From assembly GCA_011090425.1 (NCBI GenBank), contig PHGD01000007.1:1-64000 (forward strand): a DNA stretch of 64,000 nucleotides. The letters run 5' to 3'. The DNA comes from Nitrospira sp. LK70. Lineage in GTDB: Bacteria; Nitrospirota; Nitrospiria; Nitrospirales; Nitrospiraceae. The translations under genes and the position numbers were made by a program. Below are positions 20,075 to 59,190 of the stretch, in pieces (positions within the stretch are counted from its first letter, which is position 1; each line of letters begins with the position of its first letter). Below the pieces are notes generated by a model. The model was not told the DNA's origin. It was given only the letters and a program-made list of their open reading frames with translations, and searched no databases.

Positions 20075-21139
20075 TCGAATCGGCCGACCGACTGAGTCGG
20101 CTGTTCGTTAGTCTTTCTTGTGGTGCCGTTGCACTGTTCTGCGATCGCCACCTTCAGTTCTGACTTGGAGAAACCGATACCTTACTGGTCGAGATTTCGA
20201 CAAGATCCTGGCCTGTTGAGAGGGAATTCACCGCATCGGGCCAGAAGGTTGATCGGGTCTTCGGTTTATTCCCAATTCAAGTCAGGTCCTCCATCAGCTA
20301 TCACGACGATGCACTGGAAGGTATCACACCCTGGGTCCTCACGATCGCGATCGCGCTCTCTAGCATGGTGGTGTGCCTCAGCAACAGTTTGCGGCGTCAG
20401 CATCGCGTGGATGCAGACAACACCAGCCGGTTCAGCGAGCGTGCCAGAAGTCCTCTCCTTACAGCTTATCATCGGATGGATGGGTCTTTTTATCGCTGCC
20501 GGATTTGGGGTGGCGGGACTCTTGCGTTGGTCATATAGTCAGGACCTTGCGCGGCGCAAGCAGGATGGTGCGCTATCGGCGTACGATGGTCTGACCGGTC
20601 TTCCAACTCAACGGCTTTTCCTTGTACTTCTCAAACAGGCGATGAGCAGGGCTGAGACGACTAAGCGGCACGTTGCTGTCTTGGTATGTACCCTGGAACA
20701 GTTCCGCCCTCTGCCCACCTCAACCGCACCAAGTATGACGCTGGTCGTGCGAGTGCAAGCCGCCCGCATCAAGAGCGCGCTGCGACCACACGACGTGGTG
20801 GCACGCTTAGACCAGTACACCTTCGCCGTGATCGTCGATAACATCGAATCACCGAATGAGGCTCAATTGGTCGCTGAGAAAATCCAGAAGACCATGGCAC
20901 TCCCACTGTTGATCGAGGGGCAGGAGTTGCTGATCTCCTGTCGAATTGGAGGAATCGTGGGGCCGCAACCTGGGGCTAAAGCAGAGTCACTCCTTGATGC
21001 CGCATCACAAGCACTTTCGGATAGTCAAAGAGCCGACACTTCGATTGCCTTTGTGTCGGATCCCGCTATAACTACTTCTTCGTTGTTGAGCCTGACCTAT
21101 GCAGATCGGCAGCCGCGAGCCATGATTTCGATGAAGTAA
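20071..21139 (+). pseudogene. Decayed membrane-anchored GGDEF-like signalling gene
   Basis: A frame starting with the TTG that overlaps the fliA stop reads a signal-anchor-like stretch, meets an in-frame TGA at 20161-20163, and continues as a protein-like sequence (REFTASGQKVDRVFGLFPIQ) into a membrane helix (VLTIAIALSSMVVCLSN) until about 20400. From about 20411 the protein-like signal moves to the next frame: another membrane helix (LIIGWMGLFIAAGFGVAGLL), then a GGDEF-like domain beginning DGLTGLPTQRLFLVLLKQAM. At the catalytic site the usual RxGGDEF reads RLDQYTF, so no diguanylate cyclase activity is expected. The pattern suggests one nonsense change plus one frameshift. Alternatively, 20411-21139 (ATG start, 242 residues) is expressed alone. 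Confidence 0.55.
20083..20101 (+). terminator. Short hairpin just after fliA
   Basis: GCCGAC (20083-20088) pairs with GTCGGC (20096-20101) around a 7-nt loop; the next 20 bases are T-rich but not a run. Weak terminator candidate. Confidence 0.3.
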
Positions 21140-26931: not shown

Positions 26932-27456
26932 ATGGGCAGGTTGCCGATTGTGAATGAGTCAATCTCTCTCGATGAGTTGAGTAATATCCTCACCCGCGAA
27001 TCCGTTCAGTGTGATCTTCTCGCGCAAAACATCGTTCAAGAGCGAGAAGCCATCAAGCGGTTGGCATTTCCAGAATTCGTCTCAATCAATCACTCAAGGA
27101 TCGCGATCCTTGAGTGTCTTCGCATTCTCAAGGAAGAGCTGGATGTGGTCCTGGATCGCCTGGCAAGCGCTTATCACGGGCCGGAAACCGGACGAACGCT
27201 GACAGAAATTCTGCGCCAGGCCCACAGTCCGCAGGCGGAGGGAATCATGCAGCAGTATGAGCGGCTTGCGGATAAGGTCCGGGCGGTGAAGCAGGACATC
27301 GCGGTCAATCAGATACTGATTAAGAATATTCAATCGTTTCTCATTCGGGCAATGGACGCTCACCGCCAACCATCTCCGGGGGAAGACCTCTATACAGTGT
27401 CCGGCTCTCGAAGCAATAGCGGAATGCCTGCTGCGTTGATCAGACGGGAGGGGTGA
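26932..27456 (+). CDS. flgN: FlgK/FlgL export chaperone FlgN
   Basis: 174 residues, mostly alpha-helical with heptad-like spacing (DELSNILTRESVQCDLLAQN, RIAILECLRILKEELDVVLD, QQYERLADKVRAVKQDIAVN). FlgN keeps FlgK and FlgL export-competent and docks on FlhA. Sequence conservation in the family is low; the call rests on helix pattern, size and position between flgM and flgK. The ATG start has a poor ribosome site, and a GTG at 26950 is an alternative. A perfect 26-bp palindrome lies in its coding sequence. Confidence 0.8.
   Translation: MGRLPIVNESISLDELSNILTRESVQCDLLAQNIVQEREAIKRLAFPEFVSINHSRIAILECLRILKEELDVVLDRLASAYHGPETGRTLTEILRQAHSPQAEGIMQQYERLADKVRAVKQDIAVNQILIKNIQSFLIRAMDAHRQPSPGEDLYTVSGSRSNSGMPAALIRREG
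27091..27116. repeat. Perfect 26-bp palindrome inside flgN
   Basis: 27091-27116 equals its own reverse complement: arm CACTCAAGGATCG followed by its complement CGATCCTTGAGTG. In mRNA it would fold into a 10-12 bp hairpin with a minimal loop; in DNA it could bind a dimeric protein. The encoded residues are HSRIAILEC. Confidence 0.85.
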
Positions 27457-27462
27457 CGATCG

Positions 27463-29487
27463 ATGGGACTGAACGGCTTAATCGATGTCGCGAAGTCCGC
27501 TCTTTTCACTGCTCAACAGGCGTTGACCGTTACAGGCCACAACATCAGCAACGTCAACACGCCGGGTTTTTCCCGACAGGAAGTCGTCCTAACAGAAGAA
27601 CGGCCTGCTGACGGCAACCCTGGGCAAGTCGGGACCGGCGTCAAAATTGAGCAAATACGACGGGCGGTGGACGTATTTTTGAATCGGGAACTGACGAACT
27701 CTCAAGAAGGTTTGGGCCAATTCACCGTGGCGAGAGACGAACTACAGAGATTGGAGAGTCTTTTTGGTGATACTCGCGGGCAGGGGTTGGCTGGACAACT
27801 GAATGAGTTTTTTGAAGCTCTGCAGGACGCAACTACCACGCCTTCTCAGGTCACCCCGCGTTCGGTTGTGGTGGCAAAGGCCTCGACGCTGGCAGGTACC
27901 TTCCATCAAATCAATGCAGATTTAACCGAGAGTCGCCGTGCCGTCGACACGCAAATCGGTGTCAACATTCGAGAGATCAACGGGCTGACGAGAAAGATCG
28001 CCGAGTTTAATACTCAGATTAAGTCCGCTGAGGTCAGCGGTCAGAACGCCAATGATCTCAGAGATCAGCGGGACTTGGCTATCAATGAATTAGCCATGAG
28101 GATCGACGTGGCGACTCTCGAACAACCTGACGGCACTGTTTCGGTGTTCATGGCCCGCGGACTGGTCTTGGTCGATCATGAAACGACGCGGAATCTGGTC
28201 GGGGTGGAATCCTCGGACAACCAGGGTCTTTTGGATATCGGGTACGACATCGGAGGAACTCAGCCGAGCATCGTTAACCATTTGATCGCCGGCGGGAGGC
28301 TTCGTGGACTCTTGGACGTACGCGACAGCACGATTCCTTCAGTTCAGCAGGGGATCGATGCGTTGGCGGGATCTCTCTTGAATGAGGTCAATCAAATTCA
28401 CCGCGTGGGGTATGGCCTCGACGGTTCTACCGGGCTGGACTTCTTCTCGGGGTTGTCAGTCACGACCCAAGCGCCCACGACGAATGTTGGAACCGGTTCA
28501 GTCGGCAATGGAGTCGTGACCGCGCCGAGTCTCTTGACCTTCCATGACTATGAGCTCAGGTTCACTGGGGCCAACAGTTACGCGCTTGTCGATGCAACAA
28601 CAGGGACCGGTATCAAGGGCAATTACACAGGCACCGCCATCGTTTCTCCAACGGTCGATGTGCCGTTGAACATCGCCACAGGAGCGAATGATACGTTGGT
28701 GGTGACGGTAGATGGCACGACGTCGGGAAGCATCACACTGAACGGTGCTGCATCACCAGGATGGCCGTATACCTCCGGCGCAGCGTTAGCGACTGAACTC
28801 GAGAGCAAAATCAACGCGGACTCGGCGCTTGCTGCGGCCGGCCGACGGGTGACAGTGCTGTTCGACAGCACGACGAACCGATTGGTGTTGCAGTCGAGTT
28901 CCGTCGGAGGCACGAGTTCCGTGGATGTGATCGGTGGAACGGCCAGGGCGACTCTGGGCTTATCTGCCGGGACCAGCACGGCCGCATCCGGAACATATAG
29001 CGGGCCTCAAACATTTCATGTCGATGGGATTGCGGTGTCTGTTAACGGGGCGCTAGCCGCCAACGACGTTCTGAGCTTTAACTCACGCGAGAATGCCGCC
29101 CGTGATGTGACCGTTGCGCTATCAGACCCGTCCAAAATCGCGCTCTCCTCGACGCGCGCTGGTGTTCCTGGGAACAATCAGAACGGATTGGCACTGATTG
29201 CGCTCCAGTCGAAAACTCTCACCGGCCTCGACAATGCCACGCTTCTCGACGCCTACCGTAAAACCGCGACCGACGTTGGAGTGGCTTCACAGGTGGCGAG
29301 TCAGCGCCTTGATGCGGAGGAAATTCGTCATGAGCAATTACAGAACTTCCGCGCGCAAGTATCGGGTGTCTCGCTCGATGAAGAACTGGTCAATCTTCTC
29401 AAGTATCAACGGGCATTTGAGGCCGCGTCACGCATGATCGTTGCTGCCGATGAAATGATGTCGACCTTGATCTCGCTTAAACGATAG
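27463..29487 (+). CDS. flgK: Flagellar hook-filament junction protein FlgK (HAP1), enlarged
   Basis: 674 residues, longer than the ~550 of enterobacteria. The N-terminal D0 is canonical (LFTAQQALTVTGHNISNVNT, PGFSRQEVVLTEERP), then the HAP1 body (LDVRDSTIPSVQQGIDALAG, LLNEVNQIH). The extra length comes from surface modules at about residues 355-520, including a Flagellin_IN-like repeat (NDTLVVTVDGTTSGSITLNG, then SKINADSALAAAGRR) that is also found in FlgL. The C-terminal helix is typical (SLDEELVNLLKYQRAFEAAS, RMIVAADEMMSTLISLKR). Starts 6 bases after flgN. Confidence 0.95.
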   Translation: MGLNGLIDVAKSALFTAQQALTVTGHNISNVNTPGFSRQEVVLTEERPADGNPGQVGTGVKIEQIRRAVDVFLNRELTNSQEGLGQFTVARDELQRLESLFGDTRGQGLAGQLNEFFEALQDATTTPSQVTPRSVVVAKASTLAGTFHQINADLTESRRAVDTQIGVNIREINGLTRKIAEFNTQIKSAEVSGQNANDLRDQRDLAINELAMRIDVATLEQPDGTVSVFMARGLVLVDHETTRNLVGVESSDNQGLLDIGYDIGGTQPSIVNHLIAGGRLRGLLDVRDSTIPSVQQGIDALAGSLLNEVNQIHRVGYGLDGSTGLDFFSGLSVTTQAPTTNVGTGSVGNGVVTAPSLLTFHDYELRFTGANSYALVDATTGTGIKGNYTGTAIVSPTVDVPLNIATGANDTLVVTVDGTTSGSITLNGAASPGWPYTSGAALATELESKINADSALAAAGRRVTVLFDSTTNRLVLQSSSVGGTSSVDVIGGTARATLGLSAGTSTAASGTYSGPQTFHVDGIAVSVNGALAANDVLSFNSRENAARDVTVALSDPSKIALSSTRAGVPGNNQNGLALIALQSKTLTGLDNATLLDAYRKTATDVGVASQVASQRLDAEEIRHEQLQNFRAQVSGVSLDEELVNLLKYQRAFEAASRMIVAADEMMSTLISLKR

Positions 29488-33652: not shown

Positions 33653-36544
33653 TTACGCGGCTGCCTGAGTGATAGGCTGATAGCCCTGCCGGTAGGATTC
33701 GAGGACACGGACGAGTCGTGCGACTTCGAGTTCAAGCTGTGCGTAGACGGGCGGGGCATCGTGGAGCGCGTTGAGGCGGCCGACTGCTTCGAGACGACCG
33801 GCGGTGAGCGCCACCTCAGAGGCGCAAAGATTTCCGGCTGTGCCTTTGAAGCTGTGTGCCATGCGTTCGACGGTGATGGAGTCGGCATCCGCCAGCGCCG
33901 TTCTGATGTCAGCCAGCATAGTTTGGTGACGATCGAGAAACAGGCGGACGAGTTGAGCGAACAACTCACTGTCGCCCCCGATGTTCTGGTACATTCTTGC
34001 AGGATCAAAAATTCCTCTGGTTGGGTCAGAGATGGTGGGGATTGGCTGTTGTTTCCCGGGAACTACCACATTGGGTGGTGCGAGTGCCCAACGTGCCAGT
34101 GTGCTCCGTAGTTCCTCCAGTTTAATTGGCTTGGCGAGATAATCGTCCATCCCGATTGCCAAACAACGCTCGCGATCGCCCTGCATCGCATTGGCGGTGA
34201 CCGCAATGATCGGCAGGTGTCGAGTCGAGTGTGGAACCTTGTCTGAACGATTCGCGCTTCCATCGATCGAGTCACGCGAGGCCACCGACGCTTCACGTTC
34301 CCGAATGCACCGGGTTGCTTCAAATCCATCCATGACGGGCATCTGACAATCCATTAGGATGGCGGCATAGTCTCCCTTGGTGAGCGCAGCCAGCGCCTCT
34401 TTGCCGTTTTCGACGACGTCCGGTTTGTAGCCCAGTTTTTCGACCATCCGCACGGCGAGCTTCTGGTTGATCATGTTGTCTTCCACGACCAAAATGCGCC
34501 GATGTTGCACATGCTCCGCGACCATATGCCTGGTGACGAGTTGAGGTACGACGGGGCATGTCTGAGCGTCCTTCGACGCTTGGCCATCGGGCAAGCCGAG
34601 TACGGTTCGTAGGCAATCGCGTAATTCATCGTGGCGGACTGGTTTCGGCAGGTAGCCCATCGCGCCGGCTTGACGGGCTTGTTCCGCATGACCACGTTGT
34701 AGCATCGAGGTCATCACGACGAGGCGAATCCCTGACCCAGCCGGGTGGCTTTGCAGCTCTCGTGCAAGCTGCAACCCGTCCTTTCCCGGCATGATGACAT
34801 CCAAGATCGCAAGATCGTACGACAGTCCACGCTGCGTTGCCTCGGCGATGCGGTGTAAAGCTGATTCGGCATCCTCCGCGAGCTCGTCGATCATCCCCCA
34901 ACCTGAAACCAGATGGTGGAGGATCAAACGATTCGATTCGTTGTCGTCGACGATCAAGACACGCTTTCCGGTGAGATCCCCGGTCGGAAGAATCGCGCGC
35001 AGAGAATCCGCCTGTTTCTGGAAACGCACGGTGCACCAAAAGGTGCTGCCCTGTCCCTCGGTGCTGCGCACTCCGATCTGTCCACCCATTAATTCCACCA
35101 GTTGCTTGGAAATGGAAAGACCAAGACCGGTCCCCCCGTACTTTCTCGTCGTGGAGCTGTCGGCCTGCACAAACGGACGGAACAGTTTGGCTTGGGTATC
35201 CGGATTGATTCCGATACCGCTGTCCGTGACTTCGAAACGGATGACGGCGGTGTCGGGGAGGTCTTCTTCAAGATAGGCCTGCAGGGTCACCTCGCCCTTC
35301 TCGGTGAACTTCACCGCGTTGGCGACCAGATTGGTGAGGATCTGACGGAGGCGGCCTGGGTCGCCTTTGAGTCCCATCGGAACCGCTGCATGTACCAGTC
35401 CGGTCAGTTCCAGTCCTTTCGTCTCCGCCCGCTTGGCGAATTGTGCCAACACCTGCTCCACCGTGGTTCTTAGATTGAAGTTGAGGCACTCTAGCTCCAG
35501 CTTACCGGCTTCGATCTTGCTGCATTCGAGCACGTCGTTTATCAGCTGCAGGAGCGCTTCACCGCACTGCCGAATGGTCTCCGCGTAGGACTGTTGTTCC
35601 GGCGTCAAGGGCGTCTCCATCAACAGGCTCGTCATACCGATGACCCCATTCATGGGAGTGCGGAGCTCATGACTGACGGTCGCCAGAAATGCCGTCTTGA
35701 CGCGTGCCGATTCCTTGGCCTCGTCCAGAGCTTGGTCCAAACGGTGGTTACTCTGGCGAAGTTGGTCGGCGGATTGTTGGAGCGCTTGCTGTGTCCTGTG
35801 GACGCTCGTCATATCAGTGGCATAGCCTCGCACGAGCCCATGCGTGAGAACCGGGCAGAAGGTCCATGAAAAGCTGGCTTCTTGAAGCACAACTGTCTCA
35901 TCATGAAATACATGGCCTGTTGCTAGACAACCCCGCACGATGTTCGGAAGGGTAGGTGGGGCGACGTTGGGAAATCCTTCGAGGCTGTACCCGAATCGAG
36001 TGAGCAGAGAGAGCATCGCGGGATTGGCATACAGCAGACTCATCTGCTCGTCCAGTTCGATCATCGGTAAGGGACTTTCCTCCGCGATTGCGACCAGCCG
36101 ATCGCGATCTTGTTTCAATTCCAGTTCATGGGACAAGTCCCGAATACTGACAATCAGCACGGTCTTTCCATTGAACATACTGGGCGCGCAAGTCCATTCC
36201 ACTGGAACAGGGCGGGTGGCCTTCCGTAAGAGTAGATGTTGTGTCACAGAAGTCGGGCGGCGGTTATTCAGCACTTCGTTCAGCTGCGCGGTCATGGTGG
36301 TTGTGTCCGACTGGGTGAGCGTCGACCACAGGGATGGAAAGGATCGGATCGTGGAGGAAGAAAACCGTGGTCCAAGCAACCGATGGCCCTCACGGTTAAC
36401 GGCCAATACGGTGAAATCACTGGCGAGGATGACGGTGGCCAGCGGAAGCCCTTCGAGAAGATCCAGGCCGGTGAAGGTCGTCTGAAGCGAGGCTGCAGGC
36501 CGGTGTCGGTTGCGGTTGCGTTTCCGTCCAGCTGGCTTCATCAT
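33653..36544 (-). CDS. Hybrid sensor histidine kinase: PAS-PAS-HisKA-HATPase-REC-REC-Hpt
   Basis: 963 residues and no clear membrane helix, so probably cytoplasmic. Two PAS-like regions (about 25-145 and 150-255) and a coiled coil lead to HisKA (ATVSHELRTPMNGVIGMTSL, near residue 290), then HATPase_c (NLVANAVKFTEKGEV, DSGIGI, GGTGLGLSISKQLVELMGG). Two receivers follow, with LIVDDNES / AILDVIMPGKDGL and LVVEDNMINQKLA / ILMDCQMPVMDG. A C-terminal Hpt domain has its histidine in MAHSFKGTAGNL. This is a full BarA-type phosphorelay in one protein. Its ATG overlaps the stop of the HD-GYP gene (ATGA), so the two are coupled. Confidence 0.93.
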   Translation of the reverse strand: MMKPAGRKRNRNRHRPAASLQTTFTGLDLLEGLPLATVILASDFTVLAVNREGHRLLGPRFSSSTIRSFPSLWSTLTQSDTTTMTAQLNEVLNNRRPTSVTQHLLLRKATRPVPVEWTCAPSMFNGKTVLIVSIRDLSHELELKQDRDRLVAIAEESPLPMIELDEQMSLLYANPAMLSLLTRFGYSLEGFPNVAPPTLPNIVRGCLATGHVFHDETVVLQEASFSWTFCPVLTHGLVRGYATDMTSVHRTQQALQQSADQLRQSNHRLDQALDEAKESARVKTAFLATVSHELRTPMNGVIGMTSLLMETPLTPEQQSYAETIRQCGEALLQLINDVLECSKIEAGKLELECLNFNLRTTVEQVLAQFAKRAETKGLELTGLVHAAVPMGLKGDPGRLRQILTNLVANAVKFTEKGEVTLQAYLEEDLPDTAVIRFEVTDSGIGINPDTQAKLFRPFVQADSSTTRKYGGTGLGLSISKQLVELMGGQIGVRSTEGQGSTFWCTVRFQKQADSLRAILPTGDLTGKRVLIVDDNESNRLILHHLVSGWGMIDELAEDAESALHRIAEATQRGLSYDLAILDVIMPGKDGLQLARELQSHPAGSGIRLVVMTSMLQRGHAEQARQAGAMGYLPKPVRHDELRDCLRTVLGLPDGQASKDAQTCPVVPQLVTRHMVAEHVQHRRILVVEDNMINQKLAVRMVEKLGYKPDVVENGKEALAALTKGDYAAILMDCQMPVMDGFEATRCIREREASVASRDSIDGSANRSDKVPHSTRHLPIIAVTANAMQGDRERCLAIGMDDYLAKPIKLEELRSTLARWALAPPNVVVPGKQQPIPTISDPTRGIFDPARMYQNIGGDSELFAQLVRLFLDRHQTMLADIRTALADADSITVERMAHSFKGTAGNLCASEVALTAGRLEAVGRLNALHDAPPVYAQLELEVARLVRVLESYRQGYQPITQAAA

Positions 36545-37803
36545 GCGGCCCGTGAGAGGGTTTGATCCAGGTGTATCCCAATGTTGACACGTTCTTGGGC
36601 CGGGTCCAAGACACGCAGCACGGTTCGGACCTTGCGGTCGGGAGATGGTGTAGCCAGGTCCACCTCGATAGGCGTGGCATAAGAACCTCCATGTGAGTCG
36701 GTCGTGATTTTTATCAGAGGTTTGAGTCGTTGTTGAGAGTTAACTCCGATGACGACCGCCTGTTCGCCGGTATTGAGCTGGATGAGGCTCCCGACCGGAT
36801 AGACGCCGATGCTTCGAATCATGAGCTCCACAAGAGATTTTGCGAACTGTCCTCGTTCTGCGATCAAGAAGAGCTGCCGAACGGCGTCGTGTGGGATCAT
36901 AGCCGGGCGTGTGCCGCGCCGACTGACCATGCCGTCATAGACATCGACGATGCCGACGATCTGGGCGAGGCGTGAAATCTGGTCGTTGCCTAGACCGGCT
37001 GGAAACCCGCTTCCATCAGCCCGCTCATGATGCTCCCTGACGATACGTAGGACATCTTCATGCATGCCGGGCTGTTCGGAGAGAAGTGCGACGCCCAGCT
37101 TGCAATGCTGTTCGAGAAGGGTCTTATCTTGTCCGCTGCACTCATCCCGTTTACGAACGAGATTGCGCGGGAGCCGGACATATCCGACGTCATGGAGCAG
37201 TGCGCCCATGCCGACCTGTTCTTGAGTCGGTTGATCCAACCCGCTCTCAATGGCCACTACAAGGGACAAGATGCAGGTGTCCAATGCATGAGCCGTCAGG
37301 GAGCGGTCGAAGTGCTTAATCTTCTGGATGGCGACCTGTGTGACCATGACGGCGCGATCGCTGAGAACTTGCCCCAACACGTTCGACACGATGGCTTTGG
37401 TCGCTTCGGGAGAAGGAGGAATTCCCCGTTCAAGCTCCTCGAAGATGTGCTCAACCGCTTCTTGAGCTTGTGCGTAGATTACGGTAACGGAATGATCTTT
37501 GGATTTCACCTCAGCTGTACCTTCGGTTTGTGTTTGGTCCGGAGGAGTTGGAGCATCAGGGCTGGTAGAGTGGTGGCTTGCAGCATGCTGTGTATTCGTC
37601 GAGGATTCCGACGGGAGATCGGACCCTTTGCTGGTATCAATGGTCACCATCTTGATCCCATGCTGTTTCATGAGTTGGATGGTCTGCAGATCCTTGATCA
37701 GCCGTTTATGGGAAAGGAATGGGGTTTGGTACCACGGGACATCCATCTCGATGATGAACATGCCTGGTATGAGCTGCTCGATAGGGATACGTTTTGTCGC
37801 CAT
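36541..37803 (-). CDS. HD-GYP c-di-GMP phosphodiesterase-like protein with DUF3391 N-terminus
   Basis: 420 residues. The N-terminal DUF3391-type part (IPIEQLIPGMFIIEMDVPWY) is followed by an HD-GYP domain: ALLHDVGYVRLPRNLV for the HD site, then IVREHHERADGSGFPAGL for the second signature, then IVDVYDGMVSRRGTRPA. The canonical HDxGK reads HDVGY and GYP reads GFP, so catalysis may be weaker or changed; the metal-binding histidines and aspartates appear kept. Expected reaction: hydrolysis of c-di-GMP. It is first in a two-gene operon with a hybrid kinase, preceded by an excellent sigma-28 box and divergent from a PilZ effector gene. Confidence 0.9.
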   Translation of the reverse strand: MATKRIPIEQLIPGMFIIEMDVPWYQTPFLSHKRLIKDLQTIQLMKQHGIKMVTIDTSKGSDLPSESSTNTQHAASHHSTSPDAPTPPDQTQTEGTAEVKSKDHSVTVIYAQAQEAVEHIFEELERGIPPSPEATKAIVSNVLGQVLSDRAVMVTQVAIQKIKHFDRSLTAHALDTCILSLVVAIESGLDQPTQEQVGMGALLHDVGYVRLPRNLVRKRDECSGQDKTLLEQHCKLGVALLSEQPGMHEDVLRIVREHHERADGSGFPAGLGNDQISRLAQIVGIVDVYDGMVSRRGTRPAMIPHDAVRQLFLIAERGQFAKSLVELMIRSIGVYPVGSLIQLNTGEQAVVIGVNSQQRLKPLIKITTDSHGGSYATPIEVDLATPSPDRKVRTVLRVLDPAQERVNIGIHLDQTLSRAA

Positions 37804-51124: not shown

Positions 51125-51730
51125 ATGGCCTCTCCAGTCACCGCACCTTCCGTACCATCCAAGCATTCCGCAGATGAACGGCGAGAATGGATCAGAATCG
51201 ACGACCGAGTGCTGATGGAATATCGTTTGCTGGCCGATACAGGAACCGCCAATTCTGTCGAGACAAGCAGCACCACTCCAGAGATGATTTCAGCAGCCGT
51301 CACGAAGCCGACAGCGGATCTGCTCGCGCGCACTGGAGAGTCATTGATCGGCTCATCGGTGCTTGCATGGATCATGAAAGTCGATTACCTGCTCGAAGTC
51401 ATTCTCAATTCCCTCGCGACGATCGCGCCGTCAAGTGTCGTCATGGCGAAGCTGACGGATGTCAATTTGAGCGGAGGGGGTGTGGGTTTCGCGTCCTCCC
51501 ACGAATTCTCGGTTGGCGACCGAATATCGGTCAAGATGATCCTGCCTCCGTTTACCCCCATCCACGCCGTGGCGGAGGTGATTCGATCGACATCGGACCC
51601 CCAGAGACAGGGCTGGATCCTTGCCACGGAATTCGTCGAAATCAGTGCAAACGATCAGGAGCATCTCATCCGACACATTCTTCATACACAAGCCGAACGA
51701 TTGAGAGCCCGCCGGACTTCCGTCTTGTAG
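51125..51730 (+). CDS. PilZ-domain protein with an insertion between the two ligand motifs
   Basis: 201 residues. The c-di-GMP-binding arginine motif is near the start (ERREWIRIDDRVLMEYR) and the second element is DVNLSGGGVGF at about residue 117. In ordinary PilZ domains these are ~25-40 residues apart; here about 90, because of a helical insert (ARTGESLIGSSVLAWIMKVD, YLLEVILNSLATIAP). This resembles helical-insert PilZ variants. The remaining strands are normal (EFSVGDRISVKMILPP). Likely a c-di-GMP effector at the end of the filament operon; the target is unknown. Confidence 0.8.
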   Translation: MASPVTAPSVPSKHSADERREWIRIDDRVLMEYRLLADTGTANSVETSSTTPEMISAAVTKPTADLLARTGESLIGSSVLAWIMKVDYLLEVILNSLATIAPSSVVMAKLTDVNLSGGGVGFASSHEFSVGDRISVKMILPPFTPIHAVAEVIRSTSDPQRQGWILATEFVEISANDQEHLIRHILHTQAERLRARRTSVL

Positions 51731-56521: not shown

Positions 56522-56698
56522 GAAGCCTACCGTTGAGGCCGAGACGGTACCAGACACAGATTCGAAGCGCAATCGAGAGGTGCGAGGGGAGCCGGGATTG
56601 CGGGCTATGAATTCTCGCGAGAACCACAGCAGAAGGTTCGTGCATCCTTAGCCCGTCGTTGAAGCGGCACTCAGTGCGCTTCGCGGAAATTGAACGCG

Positions 56699-56848
56699 TT
56701 CAGATTCACACCGATCCTCATGCTCACGATCGAGTCGGTGGCTGACAAGAGACAAACAGGAAAAGAGGCCGGTGCAACGGGCTGGATCATCAAACCGTTC
56801 AACCCGGATATCCTGCTGAAAACAATCGCCAAAGTATTGTCGGCATAG
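56699..56848 (+). pseudogene. 3' remnant of a second cheY-like receiver gene
   Basis: The frame reads FRFTPILMLTIESVADKRQT, then GKEAGATGWIIKPFNPDILL and KTIAKVLSA to a TAG at 56846. This is the last ~45 residues of a CheY/PilH-type receiver: beta-4 with its Thr (MLT), and beta-5 with the switch Lys (IIKPF). The upstream two thirds, including the phospho-acceptor Asp and acidic pocket, are missing; the frame is closed by a TGA at 56660. In related operons a complete receiver gene sits exactly here, between STAS and cheA, so this is most likely a deletion scar. The in-frame ATG at 56720 could start a 42-residue peptide. Confidence 0.8.
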
Positions 56849-57021: not shown

Positions 57022-59190
57022 ATGAGCAATGAGTTCGCACAATTTCAGGACGCGTTCTTTGAGGAGGCGGCTGAGCATCTCGCGGTCGTCGAAGCAGGGC
57101 TCCTGGAGTTGGAACAGCATCCGGAGGATCTCGACCTTCTCAATAAGGTCTTTCGCTCGGCCCATTCGATCAAAGGCACAGCCGGCATGTTCGGCTTTCA
57201 CGCGATTGGGGAATTTACCCACAAGATGGAGACGTTGCTTGATTTGCTGCGGAATAGGCGTAAGGCGGTTTCTCCATCCATCGCGGATCTCCTCTTAGAG
57301 GCAACCGATTGCTTGAAGATGGTGATCCAATCAACGAAGTCAGGTGCGGCGATTGACGACAAAACTGTCCAGAGACTCGCTGGAGAGTTGACCTCATCGA
57401 GCGCGTCGGACTCGCGGGCGTCGGCAGTGAATGTGAGCAGGGAAAATGCAGAACCTGGTTCGGGCGAGAACTGTGGTGGAGATCAGACTTTTGTGATCAA
57501 GTGGACCCCTCCGGATTGGTTATTTCAACGAGGGCTCGACCCGCTTCAAACGTTCAAGGAACTAAAAAGCCTTGGCGTCCTGACCGGAGTCGCGCTTGAT
57601 ATGTCTCGACTACCGGATCTTGGCTGCATCGATCCGGAGACCTGCTACTTGTCATGGACCATGCAACTGACAACGAGGAAAGATCAGAAGGTAATCGAGT
57701 CCGTCTTCGAATTCGTCAGAGAAGACAGTGCGTTATTAATCCAACCGATTGAAGGCGCAGGAGAGCGATCGCAGAATCTTGTAACGGAGACAGATTCCTC
57801 TGCCGAACCAGAAGCCCCTAAACTGCTCGGGCAAATTCTCGTGGAAGGCGGCTGGGTTTCTCCCGACGAGCTTGATCGCGCGCTGAGAGAACAAGAGCGG
57901 GTAGGCGAAATTCTTGTCAAGCAGAAGGTGGTCACCCACCAGCAAGTGGAGCAGGCGCTGCAAAAACAACGTCAGCAAGAATCCTTCGCGCAGGCGAAAA
58001 GAACCGATGCCACCTCCATCCGCGTTGATACGGCAAAGATCGACAAGCTTATCAACTTGGTGGGTGAGCTGGTGATCACCCAGTCTATGCTGACCGATTT
58101 GGGGTCTCGATTCGAGATGCGGCAGCTGCCGGTGCTATTGGAGCGCATGGTGGACCTGCAGCGGAACGCTCGAGAAATTCAAGAACGTGTCATGAGCATT
58201 CGCATGTTGCCCATCGGTACCGCATTTGCCAGGTTCCCTCGATTCGTGCGAGATCTTTCGGCCAAAACAGGCAAGAAAATCCAACTCATCCTGTCCGGAG
58301 GAGAGACGGAATTGGACAAGACGGTCATCGAGTCCATCGGAGATCCGCTCATACACCTGGTAAGGAATTCGGCCGATCACGGATTGGAGCTTCCGGAAGA
58401 GCGATTGGACAATGATAAACAGGAGGTCGGGACGATCCGGCTCAATTCGTTCCATGAAAGCGGAACCATCTGCATCACCGTGGAGGACGATGGCCGTGGA
58501 TTGGACCGCGACAAGATTGTGGCAAAGGCAAACAAGCAAGGCTTGATCAGCGACAGCGATAAACTGACCGATGATCAAATTTGGCCGTTGATCTTCAAGC
58601 CAGGGTTTTCCACCGCGGAGAAAATAACGGACGTGTCTGGTCGTGGTGTGGGTATGGATGTGGTGAAGCGAAACATCGAAAGCCTGGGAGGGACGGTCAG
58701 TGTCAAGACGACCAAGGGCAAGGGCACCACATTCATACTCAGGCTGCCGCTCACATTGGCGATCATTGACGGCATGACGGTGCGGGTCGGCAAGGAAACC
58801 TACATCGTGCCGCTCCTGTCCATACTTGAGTCGATCCAACCTAAAGTCGAATTGATCAAAACCGTGGTCGGCAAGGGTCAACTCGTTAATGTTCGAAGCA
58901 TCTACATCCCGATAGTGCGATTGTACGAAGTCTTCGCGAGCGAGCCTCAGTATACGGATCCCACGGATGCCATTCTGCTCATTCTGGAGGCGGAAGGGGA
59001 ACGGGTGGCGCTTATGGTGGATGAAATTGTTGGACAACAGCAGGTTGTCATCAAGAGCATGGAGCAGAATTTTCGCAAGGTCAAAGGCATCGCCGGCGCA
59101 ACGATTCTTGGAGACGGCAGGATCGGGTTCATTGTCGATGTACGTGGCCTGCTCGAAATCGCTCGTCACGGTCATCCGGTTGCAGCTTGA
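57022..59190 (+). CDS. cheA: Chemotaxis histidine kinase CheA with an extra MshEN-like insert
   Basis: 722 residues. P1/Hpt with His48 (RSAHSIKGTAGMFGF); a P2-like segment at ~150-245; an unusual insert at 266-320 with two short repeats (LLGQILVEGGWVSPDELDRA, VGEILVKQKVVTHQQVEQAL) resembling the MshEN/GspE-N motif; P3 dimerisation (VDTAKIDKLINLVGELVITQ); P4 kinase (HLVRNSADHGLE, DDGRGLD, GRGVGMDVVKRNIESLGG, GKGTTFILRLPLTLAI); and a C-terminal CheW-like P5. It phosphorylates CheY (and CheB, not seen in the window). The insert is not part of enterobacterial CheA. Confidence 0.95.
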   Translation: MSNEFAQFQDAFFEEAAEHLAVVEAGLLELEQHPEDLDLLNKVFRSAHSIKGTAGMFGFHAIGEFTHKMETLLDLLRNRRKAVSPSIADLLLEATDCLKMVIQSTKSGAAIDDKTVQRLAGELTSSSASDSRASAVNVSRENAEPGSGENCGGDQTFVIKWTPPDWLFQRGLDPLQTFKELKSLGVLTGVALDMSRLPDLGCIDPETCYLSWTMQLTTRKDQKVIESVFEFVREDSALLIQPIEGAGERSQNLVTETDSSAEPEAPKLLGQILVEGGWVSPDELDRALREQERVGEILVKQKVVTHQQVEQALQKQRQQESFAQAKRTDATSIRVDTAKIDKLINLVGELVITQSMLTDLGSRFEMRQLPVLLERMVDLQRNAREIQERVMSIRMLPIGTAFARFPRFVRDLSAKTGKKIQLILSGGETELDKTVIESIGDPLIHLVRNSADHGLELPEERLDNDKQEVGTIRLNSFHESGTICITVEDDGRGLDRDKIVAKANKQGLISDSDKLTDDQIWPLIFKPGFSTAEKITDVSGRGVGMDVVKRNIESLGGTVSVKTTKGKGTTFILRLPLTLAIIDGMTVRVGKETYIVPLLSILESIQPKVELIKTVVGKGQLVNVRSIYIPIVRLYEVFASEPQYTDPTDAILLILEAEGERVALMVDEIVGQQQVVIKSMEQNFRKVKGIAGATILGDGRIGFIVDVRGLLEIARHGHPVAA

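Follow-up and report, generated by a model that had tools for sequence, protein, structure and literature searches.

In the Vibrio cholerae ATPase MshE, the domain MshEN_N binds cyclic diguanosine monophosphate (c-di-GMP) through two tandem 24-residue motifs joined by a 5-residue spacer (Wang et al. 2016, PMC5013675). Backbone amides of Gly3 and of its C-terminal neighbour hold each guanine of the ligand, and position 1 stacks on it; the guanine packs against Leu17 and Leu21 of one motif and Leu2 of the other, while the side chain of Gln24 touches ribose and phosphate. Among solved structures, the best sequence relative of the segment described here is GSPII-B of Thermus thermophilus PilF (PMC11731258; PDB 8pdk and 8pe0 by sequence match), which aligns with the ordinary 5-residue spacer, has a motif II that is one residue short and is followed by MshEN_C. 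Classical CheA (Berry et al. 2023, PMC10782961) has a core of P1, P3, P4 and P5, and the terms MshEN, T2SSE and c-di-GMP did not come up in searches of that paper's main text. Here we describe a CheA of Nitrospira sp. LK70 that shares this core but carries in its linker an extra domain, a pair of MshEN-type motifs. Its gene, cheA, lies on the first 64,000 nucleotides of contig PHGD01000007.1 (assembly GCA_011090425.1), a stretch that we refer to in full as the window. The fusion of MshEN and CheA is already known: Wang et al. name CheA among the partners of MshEN, and their MshEN-CheA fusions pair domain and kinase as in the Nitrospira protein. What is new here is that the spacer is nearly absent, that this state is conserved in a lineage of CheAs and that the ligand residues are retained. 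In the openly accessible papers that the search covered, we found no experiment on an MshEN-bearing or c-di-GMP-binding CheA.

The sequence-only reading of the window had proposed two repeats at 57820-57981 (residues 267-320 of CheA). These repeats are real, and they resolve into the following features:

57823..57894, plus strand: MshEN-type motif I, LLGQILVEGGWVSPDELDRALREQ, residues 268-291, with Leu at position 1 (NF053729, motif finder, shuffles)
57895..57897, plus strand: one-residue spacer, E292, where ordinary MshEN has 5 residues (motif finder)
57898..57969, plus strand: MshEN-type motif II, RVGEILVKQKVVTHQQVEQALQKQ, residues 293-316, with Lys in place of Gly at position 10 (NF053729, motif finder)

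The NCBIfam model NF053729.1, which describes an MshE-related c-di-GMP motif and has a curated cut-off of 38 bits, matched residues 269-316 of the full protein with 48.4 bits (E 5.7e-13) and the isolated segment with 55.7 bits (E 3e-15). When the P2-P3 linker was shuffled 1000 times, no shuffle scored above 14.0, against 24.5 for the real motif pair, and the two motif copies outscore every other window of the entire protein. The solved chains closest to the segment by sequence match are Thermus PilF and its c-di-GMP-binding domains. The segment also aligns to the MshEN region of NfrB, a c-di-GMP-activated glycosyltransferase (NCBIfam NF008411); NfrB is a different enzyme, and the CheA match falls far under the NF008411 cut-off. 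In alignment rows, NF053729 and the corresponding region of the NfrB model each matched 42/42 Nitrospira CheA segments. Matches to pentatricopeptide, sirtuin and DUF4388 were set aside as designed-repeat or sub-threshold similarity. The two 24-residue copies end ~15 residues upstream of P3, and the presence of a tandem MshEN-type motif before P3 of this CheA is more than chance.

We next consider the positions at which MshEN touches its ligand. At positions 1, 2, 3, 17, 21 and 24, motif I of CheA reads L L G L L Q and motif II reads R V G V L Q. Like MshEN_N, the CheA segment keeps Gly3, Leu21 and Gln24 in both motifs, together with hydrophobic residues at positions 2, 6, 7, 12 and 17. It differs from MshEN_N in its spacer (1 versus 5), in position 1 of motif I (Leu versus Arg), in position 10 of motif II, which lies in a turn (Lys versus Gly), and in lying inside a histidine kinase instead of an ATPase. 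The remaining departures of motif II, Val for Leu at positions 2 and 17, are changes that we class as conservative. The Leu that opens motif I does not count as a loss, since the PilF variant K167L, which also has Leu at position 1, binds c-di-GMP with a dissociation constant (KD) of 2 nM versus 6 nM for the wild type (PMC11731258). The authors of that study widen the position-1 consensus to R/K/L, and their GSPII-C, whose motif II starts with Pro at position 1, has about the affinity of MshEN. In the alignment, CheA and PilF GSPII-B share a Trp at position 11 of motif I.

The relatives retrieved with CheA are all labelled Nitrospira or Nitrospirota, with the exception of one Nitrosospira. Both motifs were readable, with an identical spacer, in 63/67 Nitrospira loci; the other four were left out because the frame is disrupted (L062), the match starts inside motif II (L067) or the match stops short of the motif region (L071 and L073). 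A survey of 295 Nitrospirota genomes added 80 regions, 78 of them usable after two that the P3 pattern missed were dropped (L233 and L240); since these regions were retrieved with a profile holding the spacer-1 insert, they favour spacer 1. Together with the window and the 63 loci, these gave 142 CheA segments, of which 59 remained after a 75% identity filter. Gly3 is invariant among the 59 in both motifs (59/59 each), as is Gln24 of motif II (59/59); Gln24 of motif I is found in 49/59, and Leu21 in 54 (motif I) and 52 (motif II). Since the motif finder rewards Gly3 and Gln24, we reran it blind to Gly3, Gln24 and position 1, and placement was unchanged in 76/78. Across the 50 spacer-1 segments, contact columns had a mean entropy of 0.97 versus 2.27 for the other columns, a difference that 0/20000 permutations reached. 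Such low variability would be expected of a ligand pocket in use, which it fits without proving. We consider it somewhat more likely than not that the CheA segment binds c-di-GMP, and we put at roughly 0.55 the probability that the linker is a short-spacer MshEN-type c-di-GMP site ahead of the dimerisation domain.

The layout of the protein around this site is as follows:

57022..59190, plus strand: cheA, an open reading frame of 722 amino acids, with Pfam Hpt, H-kinase_dim, HATPase_c and CheW each above cut-off
57049..57303, plus strand: P1 (Hpt), residues 10-94 (PF01627, 61.4 bits)
57490..57747, plus strand: putative P2-like region, residues ~157-242 (from position and a full-length alignment to the CheA model NF007835)
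58012..58200, plus strand: P3 dimerisation domain (H-kinase_dim), residues 331-393 (PF02895, 65.6 bits)
58348..58755, plus strand: P4 kinase domain (HATPase_c), residues 443-578 (PF02518, 68.4 bits)
58771..59157, plus strand: P5 CheW-like domain, residues 584-712 (PF01584, 90.1 bits)

The Hpt, dimerisation, kinase and CheW domains are thus present in the order expected of a CheA. The sequence-only reading had placed the repeats between P2 and P3. On the P3 side this placement is confirmed by PF02895; on the P2 side a Pfam scan of the full protein gave no match to P2, and it is the size and position of residues 157-242 that would fit such a domain. Upstream, between a STAS gene and cheA, a CheY-like receiver (56663-56848) is reduced to its C-terminal half. 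The receiver beside cheA is intact in 11/12 relatives checked, and that of L068 is likewise truncated.

The spacer was followed across CheA lineages. In a set of 60 Nitrospirota CheA loci chosen by full-length CheA search, and therefore less biased, the double motif was present in 25, with a decayed copy in one further protein (L149). The spacer was 1 in 17 of these 25 and 4 to 12 in the rest; it was 1 in 50/59 of the non-redundant CheAs, and values of 2 to 12 occur among related CheAs. In a tree built from the P3-P5 part of 62 CheAs (L138 and L171 left out), spacer 1 falls in one clade of 28 with support 99/96. This clade also includes plasmid CheAs of Pseudomonas and Aeromonas (spacers 12 and 9), and longer-spacer inserts are also present in a second CheA clade. 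The plasmid proteins came from a search for wider spread that matched 181 records, in four of which CheA regions were inspected; two of the four, from Pseudomonas sp. HR96 and Aeromonas sp. BC14, hold the double motif, and among the other plasmid matches listed most cover P3 alone. When NF053729 was run on nine CheAs of the wider set, two scored above cut-off (L123 and L142) and four below (L113, L114, L147 and L151), while for the three without insert (L115, L143 and L156) it was not among the matches listed (for L115, the best 25). The short-spacer double motif is an old and conserved feature of this CheA lineage. The decayed double motif of L149 and the intact one of L173 belong to CheAs of one genome, a natural contrast of loss and retention.

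The sequence-only reading had looked to PF05157, the Pfam profile named MshEN, for a match over residues 260-325. PF05157 has no match on CheA at E up to 10, so this expectation failed. In GspE and a second ATPase of the same genome, PF05157 and NF053729 cover adjoining, non-overlapping stretches: 78469-78705 and 78727-78882, respectively, on contig C137 (minus strand), and 27532-27789 and 27373-27528, respectively, on contig C45. Since PF05157 sits C-terminal of the motif in the genome's own ATPases, its failure on CheA refutes nothing. The stretch that it covers in the ATPases has no counterpart match in CheA. That absence is no objection either, as the isolated fragment 1-62 of MshEN_N, which lacks the C-terminal subdomain, binds c-di-GMP with a KD of 0.35 uM (PMC5013675). 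Just beyond the window, a type II secretion cluster (L177, 5436-16116, minus strand) includes a GspE with an ordinary 5-residue-spacer MshEN, both motifs of which have Leu at position 1.

Several observations weigh against c-di-GMP binding by the CheA linker. The spacer is 5 residues in 30/30 ordinary MshEN pairs of the phylum (L076-L105), a feature that CheA, with its single residue, lacks; the segment is therefore not a standard MshEN site. Both CheA motifs fail the relaxed pattern of Wang et al., owing to Leu at position 1 of motif I and Lys at position 10 of motif II, and that pattern is passed in both motifs by only 4/142 CheA segments. Both also fail the strict consensus extended to R/K/L, and the failures on either pattern come from single or conservative changes. 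The sequence-only reading had singled out conservation of the ligand residues, and these are largely kept, with Gly3, Leu21 and Gln24 present in both motifs. Lys or Arg replaces Gln24 in motif I of 10/59 CheAs. GGDEF proteins offer no help, since a GGDEF match is found in 291/295 Nitrospirota genomes; all four genomes without one also lack an insert-CheA match, and with GGDEF nearly universal this co-occurrence is weak and uninformative.

Structure prediction also bears on the question. AlphaFold2 was run on 65 and on 143 residues, with 42 and 45 alignment rows, and both models were of low confidence (predicted local distance difference test 69.9 and 68.2; predicted template modelling score 0.35 and 0.26). 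They share one feature:

57862..57927, plus strand: residues 281-302, predicted as a single continuous helix across the spacer (two low-confidence AlphaFold2 models)

In both models a second helix lies downstream, the first helix of motif I is unformed and the four-helix bundle is not built. A Foldseek search with the low-confidence 65-residue model returned no MshEN match (best E 2.8). As modelled, the continuous helix would occupy the guanine-holding backbone amides of motif II, so that binding would need the helix to open; given the low confidence, we treat this helix as a lead only.

The shortened spacer, the failed strict patterns and the long helix without a bundle in the low-confidence models would all suit a relative of MshEN that has lost c-di-GMP binding and now serves as a helical spacer or a dimer-stabilising element before P3, and MshEN domains without binding do exist, including XpsE (PMC5013675) and PilF GSPII-A. 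We nevertheless consider this explanation unlikely. A plain spacer would need neither Gly3 in 59/59 of both motifs nor Gln24 in 59/59 of motif II in CheAs as divergent as these; XpsE, by contrast, is changed at Gly11, Leu29, Arg38, Gly40, Leu54, Leu58 and Gln61 (PMC5013675); and the visibly decayed copy of L149 indicates that decay looks different from the CheA of the window.

A second explanation retains binding but moves it across the dimer, with motif I of one chain packing against motif II of the other to give two c-di-GMP sites beside P3. Domain swapping is promoted when hinge loops are shortened. In the low-confidence models helix 2 passes into helix 3 without a break at the one-residue join, a spacer of exactly 1 is widespread (50/59 non-redundant, 17/25 in the less biased set), and the dimer domain begins 15 residues downstream. 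The same continuous helix, however, blocks the motif II amides that contact guanine in MshEN, and the spacers of 2 to 12 in related CheAs argue that the domain can exist in CheA with a longer join. We regard assembly in trans as quite improbable.

In the reading of the linker as a short-spacer c-di-GMP site, which we find the likeliest, the motif, its conservation and its position are observed, and binding, switching and the direction of effect are inferred. In the ligand-free state, residues 281-302 would form a single helix, a merger of the second and third helices of the usual four-helix bundle. Since binding would require free amides at the start of motif II, c-di-GMP would break the helix at Q291-G295, and the segment would fold into a compact bundle, akin to the unwinding of a helical turn in PilF, whose first helix loses a turn upon c-di-GMP binding (PMC11731258). 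The tether that links P1/P2 to the P3 dimer would thereby change in length and stiffness, and with it P1 docking and the flow of phosphate to CheY, such that the level of c-di-GMP could set kinase output independently of receptors. Our guess is that phosphorylated CheY would be lower at high c-di-GMP, a direction that cannot be read from sequence. We advance only tentatively the fuller proposal: that a deep lineage of CheAs, whose relatives span at least 2 phyla, receives c-di-GMP directly at a short-spacer MshEN site, which the two chains of the dimer may build in trans, and that c-di-GMP thereby gates chemotactic output at the kinase.

Other genes bear on the supply of the ligand. Two GGDEF proteins of the genome have their GGDEF motif intact, and the window encodes a PilZ protein (51125-51730) and, at 36541-37803 on the minus strand, an HD-GYP-like protein that carries a DUF3391 domain. 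The organism is thus plausibly able to make and degrade c-di-GMP, and the nearby PilZ and HD-GYP genes suggest that c-di-GMP probably matters in the cell. The sequence-only reading had tied CheA to these two genes; they are indeed present, but sensing by CheA does not follow from their presence. In the PilZ protein, the PilZ signatures RxxxR (~residues 20-24) and NxSxxG (~113) are kept ~90 residues apart, which suggests that its PilZ domain holds an internal insertion. In the HD-GYP-like protein, whose gene adjoins that of a hybrid kinase at 33653-36544, GFP stands in place of the GYP signature. A further GGDEF-family protein (20120-21139, 76.6 bits) is encoded among flagellar genes and has a degenerate active-site motif. 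The pocket might instead bind another ligand, be it a different cyclic dinucleotide, such as cyclic GMP-AMP (cGAMP), or one of the proteins of the array: MshEN binds cGAMP weakly (KD 3.3e-4 M), and the surface has variable positions that could accommodate a protein. Since conservation falls on the positions that touch c-di-GMP, and GGDEF proteins occur in 291/295 genomes of the phylum, we judge such a ligand very improbable.

c-di-GMP is the usual signal in the decision between swimming and settling, and its known links to chemotaxis run via receptors, CheY-like proteins or methylation; the literature includes a c-di-GMP-binding PilZ chemoreceptor. If the reading of the CheA linker as a c-di-GMP site is true, the messenger would act within CheA itself, at the hub of chemotaxis. 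The one-residue spacer asks how much change the MshEN fold tolerates while still binding, and a segment of ~60 residues with near-adjacent halves would make a direct link between messenger and chemotaxis easy to test.
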